The notes under the pieces: generated by a model
The model's input: the letters and a program-made list of their open reading frames with translations, nothing else
What the model was told of the DNA's origin: nothing
Database searches by the model: none
Part shown: positions 4,128-24,120 of the stretch, one piece after another
Position numbering within the stretch: the first letter of the stretch is position 1
How the letters are laid out: every line of letters begins with the position of its first letter
From: Archaeoglobus sp.
GTDB lineage: Archaea > Halobacteriota > Archaeoglobi > Archaeoglobales > Archaeoglobaceae
Direction of reading: 5' to 3'
Length of the DNA stretch: 42,483 nt
Assembly: GCF_017656475.1 (NCBI RefSeq)
Contig: NZ_JACDNT010000016.1
Location: forward strand, 1-42,483
Made by a program: the position numbers and the translations under genes

Positions 4128-5366
4128 TTACTCGCCAAATTTCAGCAACTTTAACATATCACCCTCAGCTACAACAACCTGCTCCTGCGTTTCGAGGTTC
4201 TTTATGGCAACATTCCCCTCTTTAACTTCCTCTGGAGCTATGATGACTGCATATTTTGCCCCAATCTCGTTTGCGAAGCTCATCTGCTTTTTCAGACTCC
4301 TTTCCATAACATCGACAACCGCAGTGATGCCAGCATCTCGAAGCTTGCTGGCGATTCTGAAAGCATGGCTTTCAAGTCCTTTGAATGAGATGACTGCGAC
4401 AACATCCCTCTTCTTCTCTCCAACTCTGCAAACCTCGCAAACCCTGTCGAAGCCTATTGCAAACCCAGTTGACGGAGTCACAGGCCCACCGAAGAGTGAG
4501 GAAAGTTCATAGCTCCCTCCACCGCAGACCTGCTTCTGCGCTCCGAGACCTTCAGCGTAACATTCGAAGACAACACCCGTGTAGTAGTCCAGCCCCCTCG
4601 CTATGCCCAAGTTGAGCGTGAAGTCAACGTCAACATCTCTCAGCAATGAGGAAAGCTTTTCAAGATAGCTGAAATCGTAATCAACTATTTCCTTTGCCTC
4701 ATCAATTACTGATTCGTCGCCTTTTAACTCAACCAAGCTGAAAATTTTATCTCTCAAATCATCCTCAACCCTTATCTCTTCGAGGTACCTTTCAAGCCCC
4801 TCCCTATCCTCCTTATCTATCAGCCTCATGATTTTCGATGCCCTCTCCTCACCAACCGGTTTCAGAAGGTGTCTCATTATTCCTACATGCCCTATTTCAA
4901 GGCTGAACTTCACACCGACCTCTTTCAGAATTTTGTCTGCTAAAATTATCACTTCGGCATCTGCAAGGTAGGATTTGGAACCGATAAGCTCAACACCAAA
5001 CTGCCAGAACTCTCTGTATCTGCCCTTCTGCGGTCTCTCGTAACGGAAGCAGTTGGCGAAGTAGTAAAAGCGAAGCGGTCTTGGCATCACACTGCACTCG
5101 TTTACGAACATTCTCATTACAGGAGCAGTGAGTTCAGGTCTTAAAGCGAGGTCTCTCCCAGACTTGTCCTTGAAAACGTACATCTCCTCCACAATCCCCT
5201 CTCCGGACTTCCTTGTGAAGAGTTCGAGGTGTTCGAAGGTCGGTGTCATCACTTCTCTGTACCCAAAGCTTTCCGCAATTTTTCTCATTTTTCTCTCAAT
5301 CTCTCTCCTTCTTTCCATCTCTTCTGGCAGAAAATCCCTTGTTCCTCTCGGTCGTTCAATTTTCAC
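4128..5366 (-). CDS. hisS: Histidyl-tRNA synthetase
   Basis: This 412-residue class II aminoacyl-tRNA synthetase charges tRNA-His. Motif 1 begins at RPRGTRDFLPEE. LRPELTAP and FRYERPQKGRYREFWQFG form motif 2 and its surroundings. The HisRS-specific segment GLDYYTGVVFE follows, and motif 3 is GFAIGFDRV. The C-terminal ~90 residues look like the anticodon-binding domain. Length is normal. The only reasonable start is GTG at 5366. The upstream sequence up to 5519 (about 150 bases) is AT-rich and must hold the divergent promoters for hisS and the UbiD-like gene. Confidence 0.96.
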   Translation of the reverse strand: MKIERPRGTRDFLPEEMERRREIERKMRKIAESFGYREVMTPTFEHLELFTRKSGEGIVEEMYVFKDKSGRDLALRPELTAPVMRMFVNECSVMPRPLRFYYFANCFRYERPQKGRYREFWQFGVELIGSKSYLADAEVIILADKILKEVGVKFSLEIGHVGIMRHLLKPVGEERASKIMRLIDKEDREGLERYLEEIRVEDDLRDKIFSLVELKGDESVIDEAKEIVDYDFSYLEKLSSLLRDVDVDFTLNLGIARGLDYYTGVVFECYAEGLGAQKQVCGGGSYELSSLFGGPVTPSTGFAIGFDRVCEVCRVGEKKRDVVAVISFKGLESHAFRIASKLRDAGITAVVDVMERSLKKQMSFANEIGAKYAVIIAPEEVKEGNVAIKNLETQEQVVVAEGDMLKLLKFGE

Positions 5367-5519
5367 GTTCCAGCTTTGGTGAGGGTGTTTAAAAAACTTT
5401 TACGTTTTTCATAACTTTGCTGAAAAATTGATTTTTCTCTCGGCTGTAACTTTTTCAGGAGAAATTTTAGCGTCCCGACAAACGGAAGAGATTTATTTGT
5501 CTGGGTTGCACAACTATGC

Positions 5520-6749
5520 ATGAACCTTCGTGACGCTCTTGCCCTGATTAATCCCGTTCAGATTGAAGAGGAGTTGAGACACTATGAGGTGGTGGAGTTT
5601 CTCAAATCCCGCAATCTCCTTGATTCTCCAGTTTTACTGAACGTCGAGGGGAAAAAAGTAGCCAAGAACTTCGTATCGTCGAGGCAAATGCTCGGAAAAT
5701 ATTTAGGCGTGGATGCGTACAGTATAGCCAAAGAGCTGTCGAAGATTGAAGACAGGGAAGCTGAGATACGCGTTGAGCCCTTCTCCGCCCTCAACATGAA
5801 GAAAGTTGATGTCAACCTCCATGAGCTTCCCGTCATAAAGTACTTCCCGCGTGATGGTGGTAGGTACATCACCGCCGGAGTTGTAATTGCTAAGAGAAAT
5901 GAGGTTTTCAACGCGAGCATCCACCGCATGCTTCTTCTTGATGAAAGAAGGGTTGCTGCACGTCTTGTTCCACCGAGACACACCTACCTGATGTGGAGGG
6001 ATGCGGTGGAGAGTGGAGAGGAGCTTGAAATAGCTGTTGCCATAGGCACTCACCCGCTATTCCTCTTTGCCTCCGCCACGAGAGTTGGTGAGGGGGAGGA
6101 GTTCAGCTACGCTGCAAGCCTGATGGGTGGTCTAACTCTCTATGAAAAGAAAGGTCTGCTCGTCCCCGATTCCGAGATAGTTTTGTTCGGAAGAATCACG
6201 GCTGAGACTGCTAAGGAGGGGCCGTTTGTGGATATCACGGGCACGTATGACATTGTTAGAGATGAGCCGGTCATTGTTTTCGACGAGATGTACGTTAAGG
6301 ACGACTTCATATATTACTCCATAACTCCCGGCGGAAAGGAGCACCAGATGCTCATGGGAGTGCCGTATGAGCCGGTAATCTACAAGTTTGTCTCGAACGT
6401 CTGCAAGGTTAAGAATGTCGTCATGACTCCGGGAAGCTGTCACTACTTCCACTGCATTGTTCAGATTGAAAAGCGTTCGGAGGGGGATGCCAAGAACGCC
6501 ATTATGGCTGCACTTTCAGCAAATCCGAGCATGAAAGGGGTTGTGGTTGTTGATGACGACATCGACATTCTGAATTACGAAGACGTGGAGTTTGCTATAG
6601 CGACAAGATTTCAGCCGGACAGGGACTTGGTGGTGGTTAAGGGGGCGAGAGGAAGCAGTCTTGACCCATCAGCGGACGGAACTACTTCGAAGTGGGGAAT
6701 CGATGCCACAAGGCCGTTGGGAAAGGAGGGCTTCGAGAGAGTTATTTAG
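5520..6749 (+). CDS. UbiD-family prenylated-FMN decarboxylase (possible anhydromevalonate phosphate decarboxylase)
   Basis: The 409-residue protein is a UbiD-type non-oxidative decarboxylase using prenylated FMN. Family segments visible are NASIHRM (131-137), the ETAKEGPF segment (229-236) and GSSLDPSADGTTSKWGID near the C-terminus. Where fungal and bacterial enzymes have EGPFGE, this protein has E233-GPFV-D238, so the last acidic residue is Asp. Archaea use such a UbiD homologue in the modified mevalonate route to isopentenyl phosphate, and the ~410-residue size suits that enzyme. Ubiquinone synthesis is not expected in archaea. The specific substrate is inferred. A TATA box at about 5490-5498 sits 26 bases before the ATG at 5520, pointing to a leaderless transcript. 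Confidence 0.8.
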   Translation: MNLRDALALINPVQIEEELRHYEVVEFLKSRNLLDSPVLLNVEGKKVAKNFVSSRQMLGKYLGVDAYSIAKELSKIEDREAEIRVEPFSALNMKKVDVNLHELPVIKYFPRDGGRYITAGVVIAKRNEVFNASIHRMLLLDERRVAARLVPPRHTYLMWRDAVESGEELEIAVAIGTHPLFLFASATRVGEGEEFSYAASLMGGLTLYEKKGLLVPDSEIVLFGRITAETAKEGPFVDITGTYDIVRDEPVIVFDEMYVKDDFIYYSITPGGKEHQMLMGVPYEPVIYKFVSNVCKVKNVVMTPGSCHYFHCIVQIEKRSEGDAKNAIMAALSANPSMKGVVVVDDDIDILNYEDVEFAIATRFQPDRDLVVVKGARGSSLDPSADGTTSKWGIDATRPLGKEGFERVI

Positions 6750-13469: not shown

Positions 13470-13828
13470 TGATGCGCTTTTCCAAGTTTTTGAAGGTAGA
13501 AGCTGACATCGTTGTGGCGAGGCACGCTCTGGTTATGGACGAGACAAAAAGCAAAGCGGAGCCAGTCATCTTTCTCCATCCAGAATTTGCCAAGAGGAGC
13601 GGAGTTAATGACGGCGATGTGGTCGAGGTTGAAGCCAACGGCAGAATTGTTAAGCTTAAGGTAAAACTATCTGATAAAGCACCTGAAAGTGGTGGAGTAA
13701 TCCCGAACGGCATCTACGCGAGCTACTTGACAAACTTCGATGGCTTTAAGAGGTTCAAGGCGAACATCGAGGTGTCGGAGGGAGAGCTGACAAGTGTTGA
13801 GGAGTTGCTGGGAAAAATAAAGAGTTAA
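13469..13828 (+). CDS. fwdD: Formylmethanofuran dehydrogenase subunit D (pterin-binding domain)
   Basis: About 119 residues form the molybdopterin-dinucleotide-binding beta-barrel that other family members carry fused to the catalytic chain. VIFLHPEFAKRSGVNDGDVV is the characteristic segment, and GGVIPNGIYASYL binds the cofactor. Possible starts are GTG 13466, ATG 13469 and ATG 13472. ATG 13469 is chosen because GGAGGG at 13457-13462 is six bases upstream and the codon overlaps the fwdB stop. The stop codon overlaps, on the opposite strand, the stop of the large protease gene (13825-13828), so the two transcripts converge with no spacer. Confidence 0.9.
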   Translation: MMRFSKFLKVEADIVVARHALVMDETKSKAEPVIFLHPEFAKRSGVNDGDVVEVEANGRIVKLKVKLSDKAPESGGVIPNGIYASYLTNFDGFKRFKANIEVSEGELTSVEELLGKIKS

Positions 13829-16800
13829 GAAACTTTTATTTCTTTAACTACCAGTGCGGCAATCTTGTAGTCTGGAGTGAGAACAGCCATTTTTACTGTG
13901 TACTCACCAGGACTGCTGAAGGACATTGTCGTGGTCTGACCCATCCTCATCCTGCCGTTGCTGAATAACCATATTATCTGTTTGTACTCTATACCCTCCA
14001 CATAAGCTTTGAAGGTCACCCTCTCACCGACCTTTGGATTTTCCGGTGTAAAGGTGAAGTCAGCTACAATCTTTTTCTTAGTGTACTCGTAAACCCCAAT
14101 ATTTCCTGCCAGGTCTTCCATTGTTATCGTTATTTCTGAGTCAGATATGCTGCATGTCCAGACTTCACCTTCTTTCTGCATTTCTATGCCATTGGCCTTT
14201 GCCCACTTCAGCTCCTCTGACGGTTTTACTGTCAGCGTATTTCCATCCAATTCAACGCTGACAACTTCTGGCGGTTTGGTGTCGAGCGTGAAGCTGAGCT
14301 TTTCGCTCTCAGTACCAAAGGCCCTGACCCACCATACGTGCTCTCCATCTGAAAGCTCAAGGTTAACAGCAATCTCGCCTGAGCCAGTTCCCTTGTAAAC
14401 TTCTTTCCCATCAACGTATATCGAGTAACCTGCCTCATACGGCAGAATGAATCTCATCTCAGCAGTGTTTGTTAAACCACTCGGAGCAATAAGCTGTATG
14501 TTGACTTCAGGGACAACTATTTGCATTGTCTCGTAATTTCCAGCCCTGTCAGTTGCTTGGAGTGTTACAGTACTTCCAGACTTTACAAGAACGACCCAGT
14601 TCAAACCGTCTCCCTGTATGCTACAGTCTCCTCCTTCTGCAGTGATTTCCACTTCCTCAGAGGTCTTCAGCGTAACTTTGTAACCTTCGGAACTCCACTC
14701 TGCATCTATTAGGGTTATTTCCGGCTTTGTTACGTCAACTGTGAAACTTAACGCAGCTTCAGCAGCATTCCCGTCATAATCAGATGCCCGGACCTTTATT
14801 TCGTGCAACCCCTCTGAGAGCTTAACAGTATTTTCCACCTCTGAGCCATCAAGGTAGTAGACAACCTCAGAAACACCCGTTTCGTTGTCGAAGACTTCAG
14901 CATTTATCTCAAGTTCGGTGTAGTTTATGTACTCACCGATTTCAGGAAGATGTATCTTCGGTGGAGTTATGTCCTTCAGCGTTATGTTGTAATATCCGTC
15001 CTTTTCAGCAGTAAAAGTGTACTCTTCATAACCTTCAGCCAAGACAGTTACCGTCGCATTCTTTTCCACTTCAACAACGTAGTATCCGGAATCATCTGCT
15101 GAAACGACCATGTCAGGAGTTACTATCTCTGCCTTAACCGCCATCCCTACGGAGTTTTTAACATATCCCTGAACTGTAACTGTCGCCTCGTAAACTCTCA
15201 GAGTGGTGGATGTGGAGTTTGTCAGTCCTTTATCATCGCATGCTGTTATTGTTATCGTGTATTCTCCCGGTTTCTCGTACACGTGGAGCAATCCAGGCCC
15301 AACTCTGGACTCACCATCACCGAAGTCCCACCTGACCCACGAAATCTTGCCATCAGGGTCGTAGGAGAGTGATTTGAAGAGAACTTCTTCCCCTGCAACA
15401 GGCTTTTCAGGGGTGATTTCAAAGAGAACCACTGGCGGTTGATTTTTCTTAACTTCAATGTTCATGGCCGCGGTTAGGGCCCTGTAGGCATCTACAAGTC
15501 CACTGCCGGACTTGACGTCCTTTCCAGCCTCTTCTATGTCGGTGGCAGATTCCTCTATTGCTCTTTTGACATCATTCGGGCTCATATCCGGGTTGAATTG
15601 CAGAAGAATTGCTGCAATTCCCGAAACGTGTGGTGTGGCCATCGATGTTCCAGAAAGTGATGCGTAACTGCCATCTCTCCACGTTGAAACTACAGAAACA
15701 CCGGGTGCGACTACATCAGGCTTTATGTACTCTTTCTCGTAACCAACTGGCCCCATGCTGCTGAAGTAGGCGACTTTTCCGTTTTTGTCAGCTGCTCCAA
15801 CAGTTATTGCCCTTTCTGCCGAACCTGGCGAGGCGATACTCCTCTCTCCAAGCTCTCCAGAGTTGCCTGCTGCAACGACCGTAACAATACCTCTGCTTAC
15901 AATTTCATTTACAGCTTCGCTGAGCAGGTCGTGGCCGTTGGATGGGTAGACGACATATGCTGTGACATCAACCTCCACCTTCTTTGTCGAGGAGCTTGAG
16001 AGCCTGATTGTCCAGTTCCCCTTCTCAAGAACATTTGAAGGTGAATACTGGCAGTCATAATATGAGGTGGTGACAACGCAGTAGGGTTCAACCGCACTTC
16101 CGGATGGGCTTATCAATTCGAAATCAAAGCCTTCTGGAATTTCTTTGGATAAGGTGTGAAGAACTATGAACCACCCGCTTGCATTCCAGCCACTGTTTCC
16201 GTTCTCCACATCGTCATAGAAGTCGTATTCGGGAATGGCTATGTTGTCAAGCCAGATGTAGTTATCACCCTGCGACTCAAATATAAGCTTTCCACCAGCA
16301 TCTGAGGATAACTCGAATGTTTTCCAGGTGTTGTAGCTTGATGACGAAATTCTCAGAAGCTCTCTGACTTCTCCATTGTTTTCGAGCTTTACGGCAAACT
16401 CTCCGTTTACGTATCCTATTAAATCAAATTTCAAAGTAAAAGGCCCCTCCACAACTCTCTCCAGCACTCTGGCACCGCCGTATGGTGGTGCAGCCCATAC
16501 GTAGTTCACTGTATCCGGATTTATCCTCATCTTGATGTAGCTCGGAACGAAGTTGTCCATCTCATCGTAGATTTCTCCAAGAGATGAGTAAACCGGCAGC
16601 TGGATTTCGGCAACTTCATTACTGCTGATAATTCTGCTGAAGCTCCCTCCTATGCCGGGAAGTGCACCAAGACTCATGCTCACAACATCAGCACCATTCT
16701 CGTAAGCCCACTGAATACCCATAAGGACAGTAGATAGCTTACCGCTTCCCCTGCTATCGAGTACCTTTACAGCTAGTATTTCTGCTTCCGGTGCAACACC

Positions 16801-17337
16801 TGTCCTCGACCCTGCAATTATTCCAGCAACATGTGTTCCGTGACCATGGTCGTCGTAGGGTTCTGTTTTACCGTTTACAAAGTCTGCAAATCCTGTTATT
16901 CTGTTTCCAAAGTCGGGGTGCGGTGCGATGCCTGTGTCTATTACTGCCACTTTTACACCTTTTCCTGTGTAGCCCATCTCCCAGACTCCTGAAACGTTAA
17001 CGAAATTCAGGTTCCACAGGTCTTCAGTACCATCTGATGTGGCTGTTGACGAGAACAAATCCGGCATTGAAAGCATCTGGATTTCATCTACAGCCTTTAC
17101 ATCCACGTCGTAGTAAATACCAAGCACTGCTGGATTCTCTGAAAGTTTCTTGATTTCTTCGTAGCTCAAATCCGCAGAAATTGCATTGAACAGCTCTATT
17201 TTCTTTGCATTTTTTATTGAATTGGCGATTTCATCTAAGTGGCCTTCCGAAACCTTTATTATAACCGGCATCGCTGCTGCACTCTGCATACTGAAGGCAA
17301 TTATTAAGCTCATTATTATTGTAATTGTTCTCATCAT
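13825..17337 (-). CDS. Large secreted subtilisin-like serine protease with inserted beta domains and PKD repeats
   Basis: The 1170-residue protein starts with a signal peptide (residues 1-~22) and an inhibitor-like propeptide (~25-90). The S8 protease catalytic triad is D134 (AVIDTGI), H166 (DHGHGTHVAG) and S565 (SGTSMATPH), with the oxyanion Asn at N492. An insertion of about 235 residues (~230-465) sits between the His and Ser parts. Its second half, ELISPSGSAVEPYC to GNWTIRLSS, resembles a convertase P domain. After the protease come a PKD domain (~634-716), a carboxypeptidase-regulatory-like domain (~717-790), several Ig-like repeats and a final PKD-like domain (~1090-1170). No C-terminal membrane anchor is visible. 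It probably acts outside the cell and lies just downstream of the TasA-like operon, with its own 150-base promoter region. Confidence 0.93.
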   Translation of the reverse strand: MMRTITIIMSLIIAFSMQSAAAMPVIIKVSEGHLDEIANSIKNAKKIELFNAISADLSYEEIKKLSENPAVLGIYYDVDVKAVDEIQMLSMPDLFSSTATSDGTEDLWNLNFVNVSGVWEMGYTGKGVKVAVIDTGIAPHPDFGNRITGFADFVNGKTEPYDDHGHGTHVAGIIAGSRTGVAPEAEILAVKVLDSRGSGKLSTVLMGIQWAYENGADVVSMSLGALPGIGGSFSRIISSNEVAEIQLPVYSSLGEIYDEMDNFVPSYIKMRINPDTVNYVWAAPPYGGARVLERVVEGPFTLKFDLIGYVNGEFAVKLENNGEVRELLRISSSSYNTWKTFELSSDAGGKLIFESQGDNYIWLDNIAIPEYDFYDDVENGNSGWNASGWFIVLHTLSKEIPEGFDFELISPSGSAVEPYCVVTTSYYDCQYSPSNVLEKGNWTIRLSSSSTKKVEVDVTAYVVYPSNGHDLLSEAVNEIVSRGIVTVVAAGNSGELGERSIASPGSAERAITVGAADKNGKVAYFSSMGPVGYEKEYIKPDVVAPGVSVVSTWRDGSYASLSGTSMATPHVSGIAAILLQFNPDMSPNDVKRAIEESATDIEEAGKDVKSGSGLVDAYRALTAAMNIEVKKNQPPVVLFEITPEKPVAGEEVLFKSLSYDPDGKISWVRWDFGDGESRVGPGLLHVYEKPGEYTITITACDDKGLTNSTSTTLRVYEATVTVQGYVKNSVGMAVKAEIVTPDMVVSADDSGYYVVEVEKNATVTVLAEGYEEYTFTAEKDGYYNITLKDITPPKIHLPEIGEYINYTELEINAEVFDNETGVSEVVYYLDGSEVENTVKLSEGLHEIKVRASDYDGNAAEAALSFTVDVTKPEITLIDAEWSSEGYKVTLKTSEEVEITAEGGDCSIQGDGLNWVVLVKSGSTVTLQATDRAGNYETMQIVVPEVNIQLIAPSGLTNTAEMRFILPYEAGYSIYVDGKEVYKGTGSGEIAVNLELSDGEHVWWVRAFGTESEKLSFTLDTKPPEVVSVELDGNTLTVKPSEELKWAKANGIEMQKEGEVWTCSISDSEITITMEDLAGNIGVYEYTKKKIVADFTFTPENPKVGERVTFKAYVEGIEYKQIIWLFSNGRMRMGQTTTMSFSSPGEYTVKMAVLTPDYKIAALVVKEIKVS

Positions 17338-17488: not shown

Positions 17489-18475
17489 TCATTTTTCTCT
17501 GCAATAGTAAAGCACACCTCCGTGCACGAAGAAAAACACTTTTTTGTCCCTGTCATAGAAAATGTGTTCGAGGTTCTCATTTGCAGCCTTGAATATGTCT
17601 TCAACAGTCTCAACCTCGACTTTTTCAAGGTTCGTTTCGGGTATTTTTGCAAATGATGCGCTTTTAATCAGTCTATCTCTTTTTGCAGCCTCAATCTCTT
17701 TTTCAAGGAATTTTACGTCTTTATAGACGATCCTAAGCAAAATTGAAGCAATAAGAAATGCTGCGGACAAAATCACAAATGCAGCAGGAATCAAGGTGGC
17801 GTAAAAAGGCTTGGGAACGTTTATAATTCTTTTTTCAGGTATTGTAAATTCCTTGGTCTCGTTTAATGTGGAGAATGAATAATAGGTGCTCTGTACATCT
17901 ACAGGTATTGTGAAGGTAAGTGTTTCGTCAACCTCCCTTCCTTTAATGATTCCACTATATTTGACTTTTTCAATCACCTCAGCGCCCGTTTTACCAAGGA
18001 AGACGCCAAAGGAGTTTTGCGCATCATTTATCCTGCTTTTAAGATCGGACACGTTTATCTCGAAAATAGTCCTTATCTCTCCCTTTGAGCTGTTGGTGGC
18101 AGTAAAATACACTTTCTTCCATACAGGCACGTCATTTACTTCGTAGAAGTAAACCACACTCGTTTCGACGGTAATATCCACATCACTTTTCGGTGACGTC
18201 GTAAAGTAAAATTCTCCTCTGTATTCAGGAGTCAGAGAGTAAGAATAGACGGGAAGAGTCACAAAACTTCCATTTGGCCAGATGGGGTTATCTTTTTTAA
18301 CTTCAGCACCACCCCTGAAATACGCTAGGGCGGAATAGTGGTTAATTAAAACCTCAGTTTCCCTAGTTTCGGGTTTTAAGCCGTTGTAAAGCATATAGGA
18401 AGATATTATCAGGGTTAACAGTGAAGCGACTATAACGACCTTGTAATTTTTTCTCATGTTCAACTTAGCTTCCAT
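17489..18475 (-). CDS. DUF5305-like membrane protein, last gene of the TasA-like operon
   Basis: The 328-residue protein has a membrane segment at ~13-31, a beta-rich extracytoplasmic region of about 200 residues, and a second membrane segment at ~228-250. A charged cytoplasmic tail follows (KDVKFLEKEIEAAKRDR). This two-span architecture matches the archaeal DUF5305 family as I remember it, which often sits next to signal peptidases. No enzymatic motif is visible. It may anchor or assemble the exported subunits. The start at ATG 18475 is supported by GGAGGTGAG nine bases upstream; ATG 18457 is the alternative. It follows the second signal peptidase gene by 19 bases. The function is unknown. 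Confidence 0.65.
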   Translation of the reverse strand: MEAKLNMRKNYKVVIVASLLTLIISSYMLYNGLKPETRETEVLINHYSALAYFRGGAEVKKDNPIWPNGSFVTLPVYSYSLTPEYRGEFYFTTSPKSDVDITVETSVVYFYEVNDVPVWKKVYFTATNSSKGEIRTIFEINVSDLKSRINDAQNSFGVFLGKTGAEVIEKVKYSGIIKGREVDETLTFTIPVDVQSTYYSFSTLNETKEFTIPEKRIINVPKPFYATLIPAAFVILSAAFLIASILLRIVYKDVKFLEKEIEAAKRDRLIKSASFAKIPETNLEKVEVETVEDIFKAANENLEHIFYDRDKKVFFFVHGGVLYYCREK

Positions 18476-18494
18476 GTATATTTCTCACCTCCAT

Positions 18495-19352
18495 TCATAT
18501 ATATTTCTTTTGTGTTTTATAATACAACGGTTTTAAGAAAAATGTGACGATCGAGGCCATAACGAATTGGATGAAGGGGAGTATCCCATATTTGTAGGCT
18601 GGATATAATATTAAAAGGGGTAAAAAGGCATTTATGACTGTAAAATCTTTGATTTCTACTTTTTCATTGGGTTTTAATACTGTGTAGTATGGTGGGGTCT
18701 CGTGGAAAACGTAAACGTCAAAGAATCCATTATTGGTAACAACACCGTTTTCTTCGGTTAGCGATGGAGTTGATAGCAGTGAAACCACAATCAACGAGCC
18801 AGCAAAAATGATTGTGGCTTTCCAGATAGAAAAATGCTTTCTGTATTTTCTTAATTTTATCTCCTTTAATCTCGCCTCTCTTCTCAACTCTTTATCGTTT
18901 TTTGTAAGAGTTTTGAATTCAGAGACCATAAGAACTGATGCAGGAAGCAGGATGAAAAGGAAATACATAAGAAAATTTCTGCTCTTGAATTCATGGAAGA
19001 GGTATCCTATGTAGGGAATTCCGAATTTAAAAGTACCGTAAATATCTTTCTTGCTGACGTTAAACGGATCCGGGTCTTCTACAGCATCACCTTTAGTTTT
19101 AATTCTTTCATCTTCCACTTCGATGATCCTGTGAGTAATTAGCACTTCCTTTTTACCCGAAGGATCGGAAAAAGCTATTACATCGCCAACCTTAACTTCC
19201 GAATTCTTTTTCACGATGATGAGGTCGCCGGGGTACATCAGAGGCTCCATACTGCTGCTCAAAACAACGAGTATTCTGACATCATCCGTGAGAATCTCGT
19301 ACCCGGAAAAAAGGATGAAAAAAACCACCAAAGCAGTAAAAATCCGGTTCAT
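18495..19352 (-). CDS. SipW-type (Ser-His) signal peptidase I with long C-terminal extension
   Basis: The 285-residue protein has an N-terminal membrane anchor, then the catalytic serine in SSSMEPLMYPGDL (S34). H74 in LITHRIIE stands where bacterial type I peptidases have Lys, and KGD (D89) follows. This is the SipW/archaeal/ER Ser-His type. The core ends near residue 120. The remaining ~160 residues add a membrane helix (FLMYFLFILLPASVLMV), a basic stretch, another helix, a short extracytoplasmic beta region and further hydrophobic segments. The family core does not need this extension. GGAGGA lies seven bases before the ATG. It follows the small TasA-like gene with one base between them, so it is clearly co-transcribed. 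Confidence 0.88.
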   Translation of the reverse strand: MNRIFTALVVFFILFSGYEILTDDVRILVVLSSSMEPLMYPGDLIIVKKNSEVKVGDVIAFSDPSGKKEVLITHRIIEVEDERIKTKGDAVEDPDPFNVSKKDIYGTFKFGIPYIGYLFHEFKSRNFLMYFLFILLPASVLMVSEFKTLTKNDKELRREARLKEIKLRKYRKHFSIWKATIIFAGSLIVVSLLSTPSLTEENGVVTNNGFFDVYVFHETPPYYTVLKPNEKVEIKDFTVINAFLPLLILYPAYKYGILPFIQFVMASIVTFFLKPLYYKTQKKYI

Positions 19353-19353
19353 A

Positions 19354-19788
19354 TTATTCCTCCAGAGTAATCGTTACGGGAATTTCCAGAACTTTATATG
19401 GATAGGAAGGGTAGCTTATTTTGAGAATTCCGTTATAAGTGCCGTTCGCATGAGGCTGGATAACCATCCCGACTATCCAGTCATTTAAGTCTTTTTTGAG
19501 GTTGAATTCTACAAAATTCTCCCCATCCCAGTCTAATTCCGGAACTCCGGGGGCATCAACAATTCTGAAAATAACGTCATATTCATACCTAATACCTTCT
19601 TCTCCTTCGAAAACGATTCTCACATCGCTTTCCTTTAAAACGAAGCTCTCTACTGGGTAAATCTCCGAAGCCCAGTGTCCGCTTGTAAAGTAGCCTCTTT
19701 GCACTTCTGAGTCGTAAAAGTAGCTGAGCGTTCCCGACACTAAGATTAGCATCCCTGCGAGCAGTGAAAAAATCAGAGTTCTTTTCAT
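19354..19788 (-). CDS. Small secreted protein with SipW-type signal peptide (TasA-like, fifth in operon)
   Basis: This 144-residue protein begins MKRTLIFSLLAGMLILVSGT followed by LSYFYDSEV, the hydrophobic helix plus T-x-x-YF-x-D cleavage-site pattern of SipW substrates. The mature part of ~120 residues is beta-rich, cysteine-free and ends in strands typical of a single Ig-like domain. It sits between the two signal peptidase genes, with an ATGA overlap upstream and a one-base gap downstream. It is the shortest of the five exported proteins and could be a chain terminator, adaptor or minor subunit. That role is inference; only the signal type and position are directly visible. Confidence 0.72.
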   Translation of the reverse strand: MKRTLIFSLLAGMLILVSGTLSYFYDSEVQRGYFTSGHWASEIYPVESFVLKESDVRIVFEGEEGIRYEYDVIFRIVDAPGVPELDWDGENFVEFNLKKDLNDWIVGMVIQPHANGTYNGILKISYPSYPYKVLEIPVTITLEE

Positions 19789-20234
19789 TTTAAGTCACCG
19801 CCTACAATACTCTTTAATTCAATAATTAATAAAGCTAATCTTGGGAGTAGAATGAGAAGCATATAGCCCCAGAAAGTTCTGACAAAGTTTGCTACAAGGC
19901 CAACTTTTGGTATTTTACCCAAATAAACTCCCACAACCTCTTCTGCCTTCACATTTTCATCCACACGCTGAAGGTTGTCTCCCTTGGTTACGAAACCATT
20001 CTCCGTTTTGCCCACCACACGGTGGGTTATTAAATACGTTTTTCCGTTTATGGTTTTTTTGTAGGTTATAATATCTCCCAGCTCGACATTCTCTTTGGGA
20101 TGTATTACAATCAGGTCTCCCGTCTCAAGCTCTGGAAGCATTGAGGTGCCGTATGTATTCAGAACTCTAAATCCGCTCAGGTAAAGAACAGCAGCCGTGA
20201 GTGTCAACGAGATAGCAGCAATCATAATTTTCAT
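19785..20234 (-). CDS. sipW: SipW-type (Ser-His) signal peptidase I, short form
   Basis: 149 residues from the ATG at 20234. One N-terminal membrane helix is followed by the catalytic serine at S31 (YGTSMLPELETGD) and H71 in LITHRVVG, then KGDN (D86) and a C-terminal membrane helix (LLILLPRLALLIIE). The Ser-His arrangement is that of SipW and archaeal signal peptidases. It probably cleaves the five preproteins encoded around it. The frame is open to 20264, but ATG 20234 overlaps the upstream stop as ATGA and starts directly at the membrane segment, so it is preferred. It overlaps the next gene in the same way. Confidence 0.9.
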   Translation of the reverse strand: MKIMIAAISLTLTAAVLYLSGFRVLNTYGTSMLPELETGDLIVIHPKENVELGDIITYKKTINGKTYLITHRVVGKTENGFVTKGDNLQRVDENVKAEEVVGVYLGKIPKVGLVANFVRTFWGYMLLILLPRLALLIIELKSIVGGDLK

Positions 20235-21157
20235 CTTCTCACCACGCCATGGGCAGCTATGCAATCCCCACTGTTAACGATGTATTCGTCAAAAGCAGCG
20301 TTAACGGATTCGTGCTTGTAGGGGAATCTTCCTGGCGATGGTTTTGGGGGTGGGCAATCTCCAACATAAAGGTGAGTATCGAGAAGTTCCCATCCCTGCA
20401 TGTTGTATGTAACCCTAATTTTTCCATTTCCAGCGTCCTCAACTTTAAGAAATCCCGCAAAGTTGTGTTTCCCAGCATAGATTGGAATCTGAACTGTGCC
20501 TCCGTTATATTGGAAATAACTACCCCATCCCTGCTTGAATTCAATGAAATTTTCACCTATTGCCCAGCAGGTTTCTTCTTTACCTCCATCCAGCTGCTCA
20601 AGGGACAGTTCGAGGTCAAATTTTGCAATATCCCCCTGATACTCGTTTCCTGCGGTGCTGTTGATGTGGAAAGTAAAGTGGATGTCGCATATCTCTCCTG
20701 GATTAATGGGCGAGGTGTAGAATTTTACGTCTTCAAGGTCTCTCAGAGTTTTGTTATCGTTTTCAACAATCATCTGAGAAAAGCTGTCGCACTCAATCCA
20801 AATACCGGTAAAGGTCTGATAGGAGACTTTGTTCACCTGGTTGAGCGGATCGAATCTTGCCTCCTCTTCCGTAAACTCACCACCGAAATCCCTTACATTG
20901 TATATTTTCAGGTCAACTATTGCGGGATTGTTTCCGGCATTCTTTATCCTGATTATTTTTTCCTTGTATTCGCAGGGTTTTGCTTCGATGTCAATTAGCC
21001 TTCCCGGATTATCTGTCCAGCCGTTTTGCCAGAGTTTCAAATCAATATAACCCGTTGTGTAAGTGGATGGAGAAAATTCAATGTCTGAAAAGTAGGCCAG
21101 AGTTCCTCCGGCAAATAAAATTAAAGAAATGGAAAAAAATATGACGTAACTTTTCAT
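20231..21157 (-). CDS. Secreted TasA/camelysin-like protein with extra C-terminal domain (fourth in operon)
   Basis: 308 residues from ATG 21157. A SipW-type signal peptide ends in GGTLAYFSDIEF. A TasA/camelysin-like beta domain follows (~25-185), with TTGYIDLKLW near its start and AGNEYQGDIAKFDLELSLEQ near its end. A second domain of ~110 residues contains two Cys and the segment THLYVGDCPPPKPSPGRFPY, a pattern I recall from other secreted prokaryotic proteins of unknown function. This two-domain build differs from its siblings and could suit a tip or anchoring subunit. The GTG at 21160 is an alternative start. The start and end overlap the neighbouring genes by a few bases. Confidence 0.8.
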   Translation of the reverse strand: MKSYVIFFSISLILFAGGTLAYFSDIEFSPSTYTTGYIDLKLWQNGWTDNPGRLIDIEAKPCEYKEKIIRIKNAGNNPAIVDLKIYNVRDFGGEFTEEEARFDPLNQVNKVSYQTFTGIWIECDSFSQMIVENDNKTLRDLEDVKFYTSPINPGEICDIHFTFHINSTAGNEYQGDIAKFDLELSLEQLDGGKEETCWAIGENFIEFKQGWGSYFQYNGGTVQIPIYAGKHNFAGFLKVEDAGNGKIRVTYNMQGWELLDTHLYVGDCPPPKPSPGRFPYKHESVNAAFDEYIVNSGDCIAAHGVVRR

Positions 21158-21915
21158 CACTCACTCGCCACCTGCTCCAGCTTTACCGTTATGTCAACAA
21201 ATGTGATATCGCCCTGATATTTGTTTCCAGCAGAGGTGTCGAAATCGATGTACATTGCCAGTTCAAGATAACTATCAGTTCCATTTTGCCATCCATCGTT
21301 ATCTATTTCTGGGGGAGGTACGTTGTCGAATCCTGTCATTGCCAGATCTTCTAAATCCATGTATCCGTTGCCATTGGCATCTACAAGGTTGTAAGGCGCT
21401 GCCAAGCCGACAGCTGTGGGTTGATAGTTGTCTATAATTTTGTCTACTCGGGTAGGGGGCAAATCATCATCTATATACCACTTGAAGTGCAGGTGGTGAA
21501 TTTTGATGAATTTTCCCATTCTATTCGCTCCAAGATGCCCGGTAGCATATGGAACACCGACAATCGGGCTCTGGCTTTTTTCTGAGTCGCTCTCCGGCCC
21601 AGCTAAGAAGCCGTCGGTAATGTTTCCGTTGTCATCTTCGTAGTATTCAAAGCTGAAGTTTATCTCCAGATGGTCTCCCCTGTTCTCTCCCCAGTTCCAG
21701 ATTTTAAGCTTTCCATCCTCTCCTGGTTCACCGGGTTTCCAGTCGTAAATGTCGAGAATAACATGTCTTGGAAAACTGTTAGTCAGGCCAATATCCAGTG
21801 ATCCAGCCTCGAAGTAGTTGTTTTTAGCTTCCTCAACATCTGCGAAGTAGGCGTAGGTGCTGAGGGTCGCCATTGCAACTGCTGCAATAAAAACAAATGC
21901 TGCTGCTGTCTTCAT
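21157..21915 (-). CDS. Secreted TasA/camelysin-like protein with EF-hand-like loop (third in operon)
   Basis: The 252-residue protein has a signal helix ending in [14 protein letters not shown], the SipW cleavage pattern, then [10 protein letters not shown], the conserved first strand of the mature fold. Near residue 190 it carries [15 protein letters not shown], a D-x-N-x-N-x-x-D-x-x-D loop that looks like a dockerin/EF-hand calcium site. The end, [20 protein letters not shown], is nearly the same as in its siblings and marks the last strands. It is probably an exported structural subunit that binds Ca2+; the binding is inferred from the loop only. GAGGTG precedes the ATG at good spacing. 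Confidence 0.82.
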
Positions 21916-21925
21916 TTTTCACACC

Positions 21926-22525
21926 TCAGTAAGGGACACCATTGTCATTTACCTGGAAGGCCTTGAACACAATGTCAAACTGCATCTGGTCTCCCTGATA
22001 CTCGTTTCCAGCATCGCTCTTCATGTGGAAGCTGAACGCCACGTTCACACATTGATTGGGCTCAAGCGTTGTTAGTTCATGCCAAATTCCTTCAACATCC
22101 CTCACGGTCAGTACTCCTTCCCAAATGAGGACATTCCATCCCTCTCCCTCGTTGTATGCGAGATCGAACCACGTCACGTTTGAGAGGTCGTTTACAAGCC
22201 CAGATGGGTCAGCTTCAAGCTCAGGTTCTGTTTCAACGTTGTTCGATTCTGTGATGTTTTCTATTTTCGTATAAACAACAGCCGGATTAGTTCCGTTATT
22301 ACACACGAGCTTGTAAACGCAGAAGTTCAAGCTCGGTTTTGCATCGTCTGTAACAACTACCGATGTGGTCCAGGGGTTCTCTCCGTCAACTGAGATGTCA
22401 ATTGTTCCAGCCGTTATTGTGTTATTATCACTAACCTCAACGTCGTAGAAGTAAGTCAGGGTGCCCGTGGCAATCACTGCCATCATGAAGCCAATGGAAA
22501 GAATGCTCAGTATCGCTTTTCTCAT
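21926..22525 (-). CDS. Secreted TasA/camelysin-like protein (second in operon)
   Basis: 199 residues from ATG 22525, which has GGTGGTGG just upstream; an in-frame GTG at 22537 is less likely. The signal helix ends in TGTLTYFYDVEV, matching the SipW-substrate pattern. The mature domain starts with ITAGTIDISV and ends with SDAGNEYQGDQMQFDIVFKA, the hallmark strands shared with the neighbouring proteins. Three cysteines (FCVYKLVC and NQCVN) suggest a disulfide. Asn-x-Ser/Thr sites are present. It is predicted to be a single-domain subunit of an exported fibre. No HExxH zinc-protease motif is visible, so the camelysin name does not imply peptidase activity here. Confidence 0.82.
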   Translation of the reverse strand: MRKAILSILSIGFMMAVIATGTLTYFYDVEVSDNNTITAGTIDISVDGENPWTTSVVVTDDAKPSLNFCVYKLVCNNGTNPAVVYTKIENITESNNVETEPELEADPSGLVNDLSNVTWFDLAYNEGEGWNVLIWEGVLTVRDVEGIWHELTTLEPNQCVNVAFSFHMKSDAGNEYQGDQMQFDIVFKAFQVNDNGVPY

Positions 22526-22560
22526 TTCCACCACCAAAAAATAGGGAGTGTGTATTTGTA

Positions 22561-23310
22561 TTACCCTGCGAACGGGTTGCTGTTATCGTTAAGCTGCGTA
22601 ACAGCGAACTTCAGGTCTGCCCCCCAGCTGTCTGACTGGGCCATGTTGTCAGTAGCAGTTGAATCCCAGCTCCAATATATTCCAAAGCAGTAAGTTTCGC
22701 AGGGTTCCATGTATCCATCCGGCAAGTGTTCGCTCAGGTTGAAGCTCTGGTCTGAAATCTCGTTGAGGTATCCTTCCCACAAGATTTGTTCGCTTTCAAT
22801 CCCATTTCCGTTGCCATCGCAAATTGGGCACTCACATTCATCTTCATAAACGTCCAGCTTATTGTCACAGTCATCATCTCTCCAGATCATTACGTATATG
22901 TAGTCATCAAGTTCTCCCTCTCCAACTCCGTCGGTGCTGTCTCCAGCTTCACTTTCAGGTTCTGTTATTCCGTTGTCATCATCTTCTTTGACATCGACCA
23001 TGAACCACAGGTATCCAGGGTTGTCGTAGAGATGCAGGCTAACTGTCATCTCTCCAGAATCGCCAGGTTTAACGTCATCAAGCTGCCAGAAGTAGTCACT
23101 CTCTCCTAAATCCTTCTCACTAAAGTTGTGGTAATAGACATTTCCATCCCACTTCCAGTATGTGCTATTCAAATCCACTTTCAGGTCGAGGCTGCCAGCC
23201 GTGAAGGTTCCTGGAGCCATCTCGGTGTCGCTGAAGTACGCAATGGTTCCCGCACCCAGTCCAATTCCAATAAGCCCCACAACAAGGAGGCTATACCAAA
23301 CATTTTTCAC
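22561..23310 (-). CDS. Secreted TasA/camelysin-like protein, first gene of the operon (candidate major subunit)
   Basis: 249 residues from GTG 23310, chosen because GAGGTG lies seven bases upstream; the frame is open to a TTG at 23316. The signal segment ends in [20 protein letters not shown], the most typical SipW-substrate sequence in the window, and SLDLKVDLN opens the mature beta-sandwich. [20 protein letters not shown] is the usual second conserved block of TasA/camelysin-like proteins. An inserted acidic, cysteine-bearing stretch (residues ~140-175, with CDNKLD, CECPIC and DGNGNG) could bind calcium or form disulfides. First position in the operon, next to the promoter, suggests high expression. 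Confidence 0.85.
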
Positions 23311-23344
23311 TTCCAATCACCTCGAAAAGTAGTTGTCAGCCATT

Positions 23345-23378
23345 TTTAATATGCTTATTGAAATATAATTACAAATTA
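23345..23378 (-). promoter_or_regulatory. Promoter/operator element of the TasA-like operon
   Basis: This 34-bp AT-rich stretch matches 28 of 34 positions with 23677-23710 in front of the nearby winged-helix gene. Shared blocks on the plus strand are TTTAATATGC, TATAATTA and AATT at identical spacing. On the minus strand it contains a TATA-like ATTATATTT about 50 bases before the first gene, leaving a leader that carries the ribosome binding site. It probably combines a core promoter with an operator site. Binding by the neighbouring regulator is inference. Confidence 0.55.
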
Positions 23379-23443: not shown

Positions 23444-23656
23444 TTAGTACACGTCAAGTTCAACCAGCTTCCTACCGCTTTCACTCAGTCTGAGCCTCAG
23501 ATTATCGCTTTCAATGAAATCCATCTCTTTCAGGAACTCAAGCACTTTTTTCAGAATTTTTCGCTCCACCCTTAGAATTTTGGCCAACTCTCTTTCAGTC
23601 ATTTCTTTCTCACTCAAGATTAGAAGGATTTCATCCATTAGTTCTGGAAAGTTCAT
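23444..23656 (-). CDS. Small winged-helix DNA-binding protein
   Basis: The 70-residue protein is built of helix, helix-turn-helix and a short wing: ELMDEILLILSEKEMTERELAKI, then RILKKVLEFLKEMDFIES and LRLRLSESGRKLVEL. The whole protein is one winged-helix domain with no sensor part. It lies 130 bases upstream of the TasA-like operon on the same strand, and its own promoter carries the same 34-bp element as the operon. This suggests it controls both itself and the operon, perhaps as a repressor, analogous in position to the matrix regulators of other organisms. Family assignment is by pattern only. Confidence 0.72.
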   Translation of the reverse strand: MNFPELMDEILLILSEKEMTERELAKILRVERKILKKVLEFLKEMDFIESDNLRLRLSESGRKLVELDVY

Positions 23657-23771: not shown

Positions 23772-24050
23772 TCAAAAAATGGGATTTTCCGCACTTTTTA
23801 GTGCCTCGAGATCTTCCTCTATTTCTCTGAATTTCTTTATGAACTCTCTTCCTTTACCGGTGGTTCTGTATTTTGTTCTTTTTCCGTCGAGAACGGATTC
23901 GATAAAACCTTCTCTTAAGAGGCAATTAACGTAATCCTGGGCGACTTTAGAGTTCAAATTTGCTTTGTAAACGATTTTCGTGATGTTTACTCCGTTTCCG
24001 GAGCAAATTTGAAGAATTTCTGCAACGATTTCAACTTTAGACCTTTTCAT
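23772..24050 (-). CDS. Winged-helix transcriptional regulator
   Basis: 92 residues from ATG 24050, which has GGGTG at suitable spacing; an in-frame GTG at 24059 is the alternative. The sequence KVEIVAEILQIC, NITKIVYKANLNSKVAQDYV, then LLREGFIESVLDGKRTKYRT and TGKGREFIKKF is the pattern of the archaeal winged-helix group often called HTH_45, with a C-terminal dimerisation helix. It lies upstream of the other small regulator and the TasA-like operon on the same strand, separated by 115 bases. Its target is unknown; local regulation is a reasonable guess. Confidence 0.82.
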   Translation of the reverse strand: MKRSKVEIVAEILQICSGNGVNITKIVYKANLNSKVAQDYVNCLLREGFIESVLDGKRTKYRTTGKGREFIKKFREIEEDLEALKSAENPIF

Positions 24051-24120
24051 TCTGAACACCCGAAGTATTCAATGTGCCGTAAATTTTGTTTTTAATGATA
24101 TTTATAGATTACGCTAAATT

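Follow-up and report, generated by a model that had tools for sequence, protein, structure and literature searches.

In the window, which is the whole 42,483-nt stretch of Archaeoglobus DNA analysed here (host genome G000, 2.04 Mb in 92 contigs, 96.5% complete; all coordinates refer to the window), eight genes on the minus strand (17489-23316) encode five SipW-type secreted proteins (S1 to S5), two Ser-His signal peptidases (SPase1 and SPase2) and one DUF5305 protein. This operon probably makes an extracellular fibre of the TasA type, given the TasA-type profile, motif and predicted fold of its secreted proteins, its peptidases and its tight organization. What is chiefly new is that DUF5305 genes are linked to signal peptidase genes, and this also in the tafi cluster of the haloarchaeal Tat-fimbriae.

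Secreted subunits of the TasA/camelysin type

All five secreted proteins carry the motif [GS]Txx-YF-x-D-x-E (GTLSYFYDSE is one of the five), and all five score above the cut-off of the NCBIfam model for the SipW-dependent signal (TIGR04088, E 7e-6 to 7e-10), which bears out an earlier note on this DNA that had pointed to five proteins with a SipW-substrate pattern. The whole genome holds six matches to TIGR04088, five of them in the operon, and a chance placement of five of six in a stretch of 3.7 kb has a probability of about 3e-10. S1 to S4 also score above the Pfam gathering score for camelysin/TasA (PF12389). The proline box, which is located where subunits meet and is better conserved than any other part of TasA-like proteins (PMC10151520), and the C-terminal YQG motif are both found in S2, S3 and S4; S1 has kept the proline box (DVKPGD), and its C-terminal motif has diverged (DNMAQSD). 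In genome G004, the copy of S2 is 90% identical and that of the whole S4 protein 78% identical. S1 alone gave no match in the PDB, and the last 110 aa of S4 gave none in Pfam, NCBIfam or the PDB.

A profile of eight archaeal proteins of the S2/S4 type, with no Bacillus sequence in it, has TasA as its best PDB matches (8aur, E 3.6e-5; 5of1, E 9e-5), and the match covers both the N-terminal/proline-box region and the C-terminal QNKYQG...Q region, in register. TasA is also the best match of the A5 profile (E 5e-21). The archaeal subunit profiles match AbpX weakly (E 0.024-0.14), and AbpA is not matched by sequence; of the three families that the earlier note had proposed for comparison (TasA, AbpA and camelysin), a likeness is found to TasA and, in S1 to S4, to camelysin. 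The TasA and SipW equivalog models NF046066 (cut-off 450 bits) and NF046067 (190 bits) are not reached, the best scores being 21.6 and 75.4 bits. An HExxH zinc motif, by which a camelysin metalloprotease (M73) might be recognized, occurs in none of S1 to S5, and therefore there is no sign of the metalloprotease suggested by the Pfam name. Matches of S2 to GlmU were attributed to chance, given that they are short and that GlmU has an unrelated enzyme fold.

The structure of mature S2 was predicted with AlphaFold2 from 42 sequences. The model (pLDDT 87.9, pTM 0.81) is all beta save for a few short helices, and its N-terminus (residues 1-19) is free, unstructured and of lower confidence. Foldseek places TasA in its fibre form (8aur, E 2e-5, prob 1.00) first among the PDB matches of this model. 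The earlier note had held that a fold unrelated to TasA would argue against its proposal; for this subunit, the closest structure is TasA in its fibre form.

Small SipW-type proteins recur ahead of SPase2, at the position of S5 (L040, L041, L042, L043, L077, L143), and several of them have G-x-W following the signal where S1 to S4 have G-x-[LI]-D. Very large proteins of 877 and 1343 aa stand ahead of the signal peptidase and DUF5305 in two Methanosarcina-like loci (L142:3080-5713 and L146:413-4444), and these have an S5-like N-terminus (SASFTDA/SASFSDT ... GVW).

Two lineages of signal peptidases

Both peptidases score above the TIGR02228 cut-off (79.6 and 80.0 bits versus 51.85). The blocks Ser-Met-x-Pro, His-Arg and Lys-Gly-Asp...Asp are invariant in both (S34, H74, D89 and D95), and therefore these are signal peptidases of the Ser-His type, as had been claimed. 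In a tree of 36 signal peptidases, the short SPase1 clade is separate from the long SPase2 clade (support values in Table 1). Both clades have members from Archaeoglobus, G011, ANME-1 (L071), an unplaced euryarchaeal metagenome-assembled genome (L077) and G198 (L144), indicating that the pair is old and did not arise by a recent duplication. Judging from the tree, SPase1 and SPase2 are two old orthologous lineages that several groups of archaea have kept together. The loci of G008 and G017 have SPase2 without SPase1.

Linkage of DUF5305 to signal peptidases and to the tafi cluster

The last protein of the operon scores 88.4 bits with PF17231 (gathering score 29) and has two hydrophobic segments, in agreement with its earlier description as a DUF5305-like two-span membrane protein. 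Three DUF5305 genes are present in the window's genome, each adjoining a signal peptidase: one in the window, one on C20 with SipW-type substrates, and one on C3 with DUF1102 proteins. When 60 relatives are added, there are 24 DUF5305 loci in the Archaeoglobales, and in 23 of them a signal peptidase lies within 3 kb, versus 0.29 expected by random placement, a count that exceeds the number of independent events, given that these loci are related by descent; the 24th locus is at a contig end. DUF5305 is found in 100 of 393 genomes of the wider phylum. Outside the Archaeoglobales, all of the 20 loci hand-picked across the E-value range have a peptidase within 4 kb of DUF5305, the open reading frame of that in L142 being short. 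The subunit genes at the sampled loci encode camelysins (L143, L144, L145) or, in haloarchaea, DUF1102/Taf-like proteins. Relatives of the winged-helix family HTH_45 adjoin most of the peptidase-DUF5305 cassettes in the Archaeoglobales.

At the haloarchaeal DUF5305 loci, the neighbours match the NCBI families TafA, TafC, TafE and TafF. All four score above their curated cut-offs in one of these loci (L150, genome G376), where genes for a signal peptidase, a DUF7344 winged-helix protein and DUF5305 are part of the cluster too. DUF5305 lies within about 3 kb of TafA in five of the seven genomes in which TafA is above its cut-off; the window's genome has no TafA match. Tat-fimbriae are experimentally known surface filaments (Galeva et al. 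2025, iScience 28:111793, as cited in PMC12687288). The presence of Taf proteins, peptidase and DUF5305 in L150 therefore ties the peptidase-DUF5305 cluster to a real fimbria, and the position of the two genes suggests that they are part of the tafi machinery. The tafi cluster resembles the window's operon in its small secreted fimbrial proteins, its TIGR02228-type peptidase, its winged-helix gene and its DUF5305 gene; it differs in that TafA, TafC, TafE and TafF are exported by the Tat pathway and that its peptidase belongs in the tree to a clade other than those of the window's peptidases. This link supports the fibre reading of the window, and is not proof of it.

It is about evenly balanced whether the peptidase and DUF5305 form a core shared by a wide range of archaeal fimbria operons, in which the subunits are swappable (TasA/camelysin proteins with Sec export and SipW-type signals, DUF1102 proteins in Archaeoglobi, and Taf proteins with Tat export in haloarchaea) and DUF5305 is the conserved base or assembly factor in all. 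The linkage, the layout of the DUF5305 protein (membrane segment, ectodomain, membrane segment, tail) and the tafi cluster suggest that it acts in a shared fimbria cassette, either as the base at the membrane or as a factor in assembly. The protein could instead serve the cassette as a sensor or regulator, or present substrates to the peptidase as its partner, given that its second transmembrane segment is followed by a small, conserved domain in the cytosol and that its linkage to the peptidase does not depend on the type of subunit. This alternative is a serious one, albeit somewhat improbable, and a structural role is just as compatible with the large beta-rich ectodomain, which is anchored on either side.

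Proposed fibre assembly and its alternatives

If the operon makes a fibre, the S proteins would be exported by the Sec pathway, and one or both peptidases would cleave just ahead of the aromatic YFxD motif, as the signals and the presence of the peptidases suggest. Cleavage would free a flexible N-terminal segment that, going by family and fold, could become the donor strand in the groove of the next subunit. This is the arrangement in TasA fibres, where the N-terminal strand is donated to the next subunit (PMC9674648). The shaft would be made of S2 with S1, S3 and S4. S4 might perhaps be a tip or adhesin through its additional C-terminal domain, and S5 might conceivably start or anchor the fibre. 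DUF5305 would hold the growing fibre at the membrane, or help to load it, beside the peptidase, and the same pair would serve other secreted subunits, of the DUF1102/Taf type, elsewhere in archaea.

Several observations weigh against this proposal. S5 has no Pfam match, passes no camelysin cut-off and has neither the proline box nor the C-terminal YQG motif, and from its sequence it is not clear that it is a TasA-fold protein. The TM-scores of S2 versus TasA are moderate (0.58/0.46), and the fold evidence comes from this one subunit, modelled as a monomer. The model of DUF5305, built from three sequences, is weak (pLDDT 73), and the fold search with it gave only poor matches to Ig/FnIII/arrestin-like sandwiches. 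To these are added the shared descent of the Archaeoglobales DUF5305 loci and the patchy distribution of the camelysin-type cassette, which is present in 5 of 55 Archaeoglobaceae genomes. Among the papers found, none describes such a fibre in Archaeoglobus. Of the extracellular fibre or biofilm matrix proposed in the earlier note, a fibre stands as likely on the subunits, the dedicated peptidases and the tight operon, and the roles of shaft, adaptor, tip and anchor that it had considered are tentative.

The S proteins could also remain monomeric or form sheets, as an S-layer-like coat or matrix protein with no filament, and DUF5305 could then be an ordinary surface protein. S-layer proteins are beta-sandwiches as well, one of them matches the A5 profile at E 0.086, and the formation of filaments is something that we infer for the S proteins. 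Nonetheless, this is unlikely, given that TasA is the best match both of the A5 profile and of the fold, the latter in its fibre form, that S2 to S4 retain the two TasA motifs, and that known fimbriae have a related cassette. It is very improbable that the operon makes a cannula-like tube, as CanA does in Pyrodictium, given that CanA (9hdi), although next among the fold matches of S2 (E 4.5e-3, prob 0.97), scores far below TasA and is absent from the sequence-profile matches, which give TasA and weakly AbpX.

If the TasA-type fibre and its shared machinery are real, DUF5305, a family for which no paper was found in the literature searched, would have a testable role, and TasA-like fibres and haloarchaeal Tat-fimbriae, which have been studied apart, would be joined via one shared machine. 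This would also offer a possible answer to how archaea keep donor-strand fibres at the membrane, and would predict fibres in Archaeoglobus and related genera, ANME-1 and Methanosarcina-like archaea. The same literature search found nothing on the AF16xx gene names of A. fulgidus, on SipW in Archaeoglobus or on DUF1102.

Comparison with known systems

The operon shares with tapA-sipW-tasA of Bacillus (PMC9674648, PMC10151520) the SipW-type signal peptides, a Ser-His peptidase encoded within the operon, the TasA fold, the proline box and the YQG motif. It differs in having five substrates where Bacillus has two and two old peptidase lineages where Bacillus has one, in the addition of DUF5305 and upstream winged-helix genes, and in the absence of TapA by profile; moreover, its subunits fall below the TasA equivalog cut-off and its peptidases below that of SipW. 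The Bacillus cereus cluster sipW-calY1-bc_1280-calY2 (PMC10151520) likewise combines several camelysins with a SipW-type peptidase, of which it has one, and no DUF5305 was found in the bacterial loci examined. Among archaea, the bundling pili of Pyrobaculum (AbpA) and Pyrodictium (AbpX) are TasA-like donor-strand fibres (PMC9674648, PMC11952670), to which the sequence match is weak or, for AbpA, none.

Operon layout and neighbouring genes

The open reading frames, strands and coordinates given for the eight genes in the earlier note were confirmed (Table 1). The junctions range from -34 to +23 bp, and the spacing is thus tight; the stops and starts that had been described as mostly overlapping do so at three of the seven junctions, one of these only if an upstream alternative start is used. 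The neighbourhood extends beyond the coordinates of that note to two winged-helix genes just upstream, whose position suggests that they are regulators. The 31-bp block ahead of S1 is identical in G004 while its flanks diverge, and it is possibly a promoter or a binding site of a winged-helix protein.

Table 1. Features of the operon and its upstream region, with window coordinates
Feature	Coordinates	Strand	Basis
DUF5305 membrane protein: transmembrane segment, beta-rich ectodomain, transmembrane segment, small cytosolic domain	17489..18475	-	PF17231 6e-25; model
SPase2, long Ser-His signal peptidase, 4 hydrophobic segments	18495..19352	-	TIGR02228 2.2e-22; clade support 98/98
S5, SipW-type secreted protein, 144 aa, GxW variant following signal	19354..19788	-	TIGR04088 6.9e-6; no Pfam match
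SPase1, short Ser-His signal peptidase, 2 hydrophobic segments	19785..20264	-	TIGR02228 1.7e-22; catalytic blocks; clade support 99/91
S4, TasA-type subunit, 309 aa, additional C-terminal domain	20231..21160	-	PF12389 3.6e-9; GNEYQGD at residue 171
Additional C-terminal domain of S4, ~110 aa	20231..20563	-	no family or PDB match
S3, TasA-type subunit, 252 aa	21157..21915	-	PF12389 3.2e-8; TIGR04088 7.9e-7; DWKPGE and GNKYQGD motifs
S2, TasA-type subunit, candidate main fibre protein, 203 aa	21926..22537	-	PF12389 1.1e-10; TIGR04088 7.9e-10; AlphaFold2; Foldseek
S1, SipW-type secreted camelysin-like subunit, 251 aa, TTG start	22561..23316	-	PF12389 E 1.4e-6; TIGR04088 6.8e-10
31-bp block upstream of S1, identical in G004, candidate promoter/operator	23341..23371	-	pairwise alignment
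Small winged-helix protein, 70 aa, candidate regulator	23444..23656	-	PF01022 HTH_5 1.9e-5; G004 copy L040:11717-11986
HTH_45 winged-helix protein, 95 aa, candidate regulator	23772..24059	-	PF14947 7.5e-23

Distribution of the cassettes

The order of the operon is retained in G004, G011, ANME-1 (L071) and L077, and a shorter form is found in L144. In L077, three camelysins, SPase1, a small SipW-type protein, SPase2 and DUF5305 follow one another as in the window. Other loci hold three to six SipW-type substrates each, and the five of the window are not the exception that they had seemed when set against simpler loci with one or two. G003, in which the flanking genes have counterparts 96-97% identical to those of the window, gave no SipW-type signal, and therefore the cassette seems to be readily gained or lost. 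In the search for an empty site in sister genomes, the flanking genes were on different contigs or 27-34 kb apart.

A second type of cassette (L049:5336-10302, in G000:C3, and L050-L067) consists of a winged-helix gene, two to four DUF1102 genes, a signal peptidase, a secreted protein of the 276-aa type and DUF5305, and is more widespread among Archaeoglobales genomes than the camelysin type. A common fold of camelysins, DUF1102 and '276' proteins is not claimed here: the profile comparison of camelysins with DUF1102 gave prob 3, and the alignment of camelysins with the '276' proteins covers the signal region only.

Proteins of peptidase family C25, the gingipain family, abut SipW/DUF5305 cassettes of the C20 type (L039:10480-12990, in G000:C20; L045:12562-15177; L065:691-3336), and the two of the three that were scanned both have PKD and dockerin domains. 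Gingipains trigger the donor-strand assembly of type V pili, and by analogy an assembly triggered by the C25 proteases may be taken as a lead. Downstream of the window's operon, at 151 bp and on the same strand, lies a secreted subtilase with PKD domains (13825-17337, minus strand), whose counterpart in G004 is two overlapping open reading frames (L040:2090-4822 and 4789-5601).

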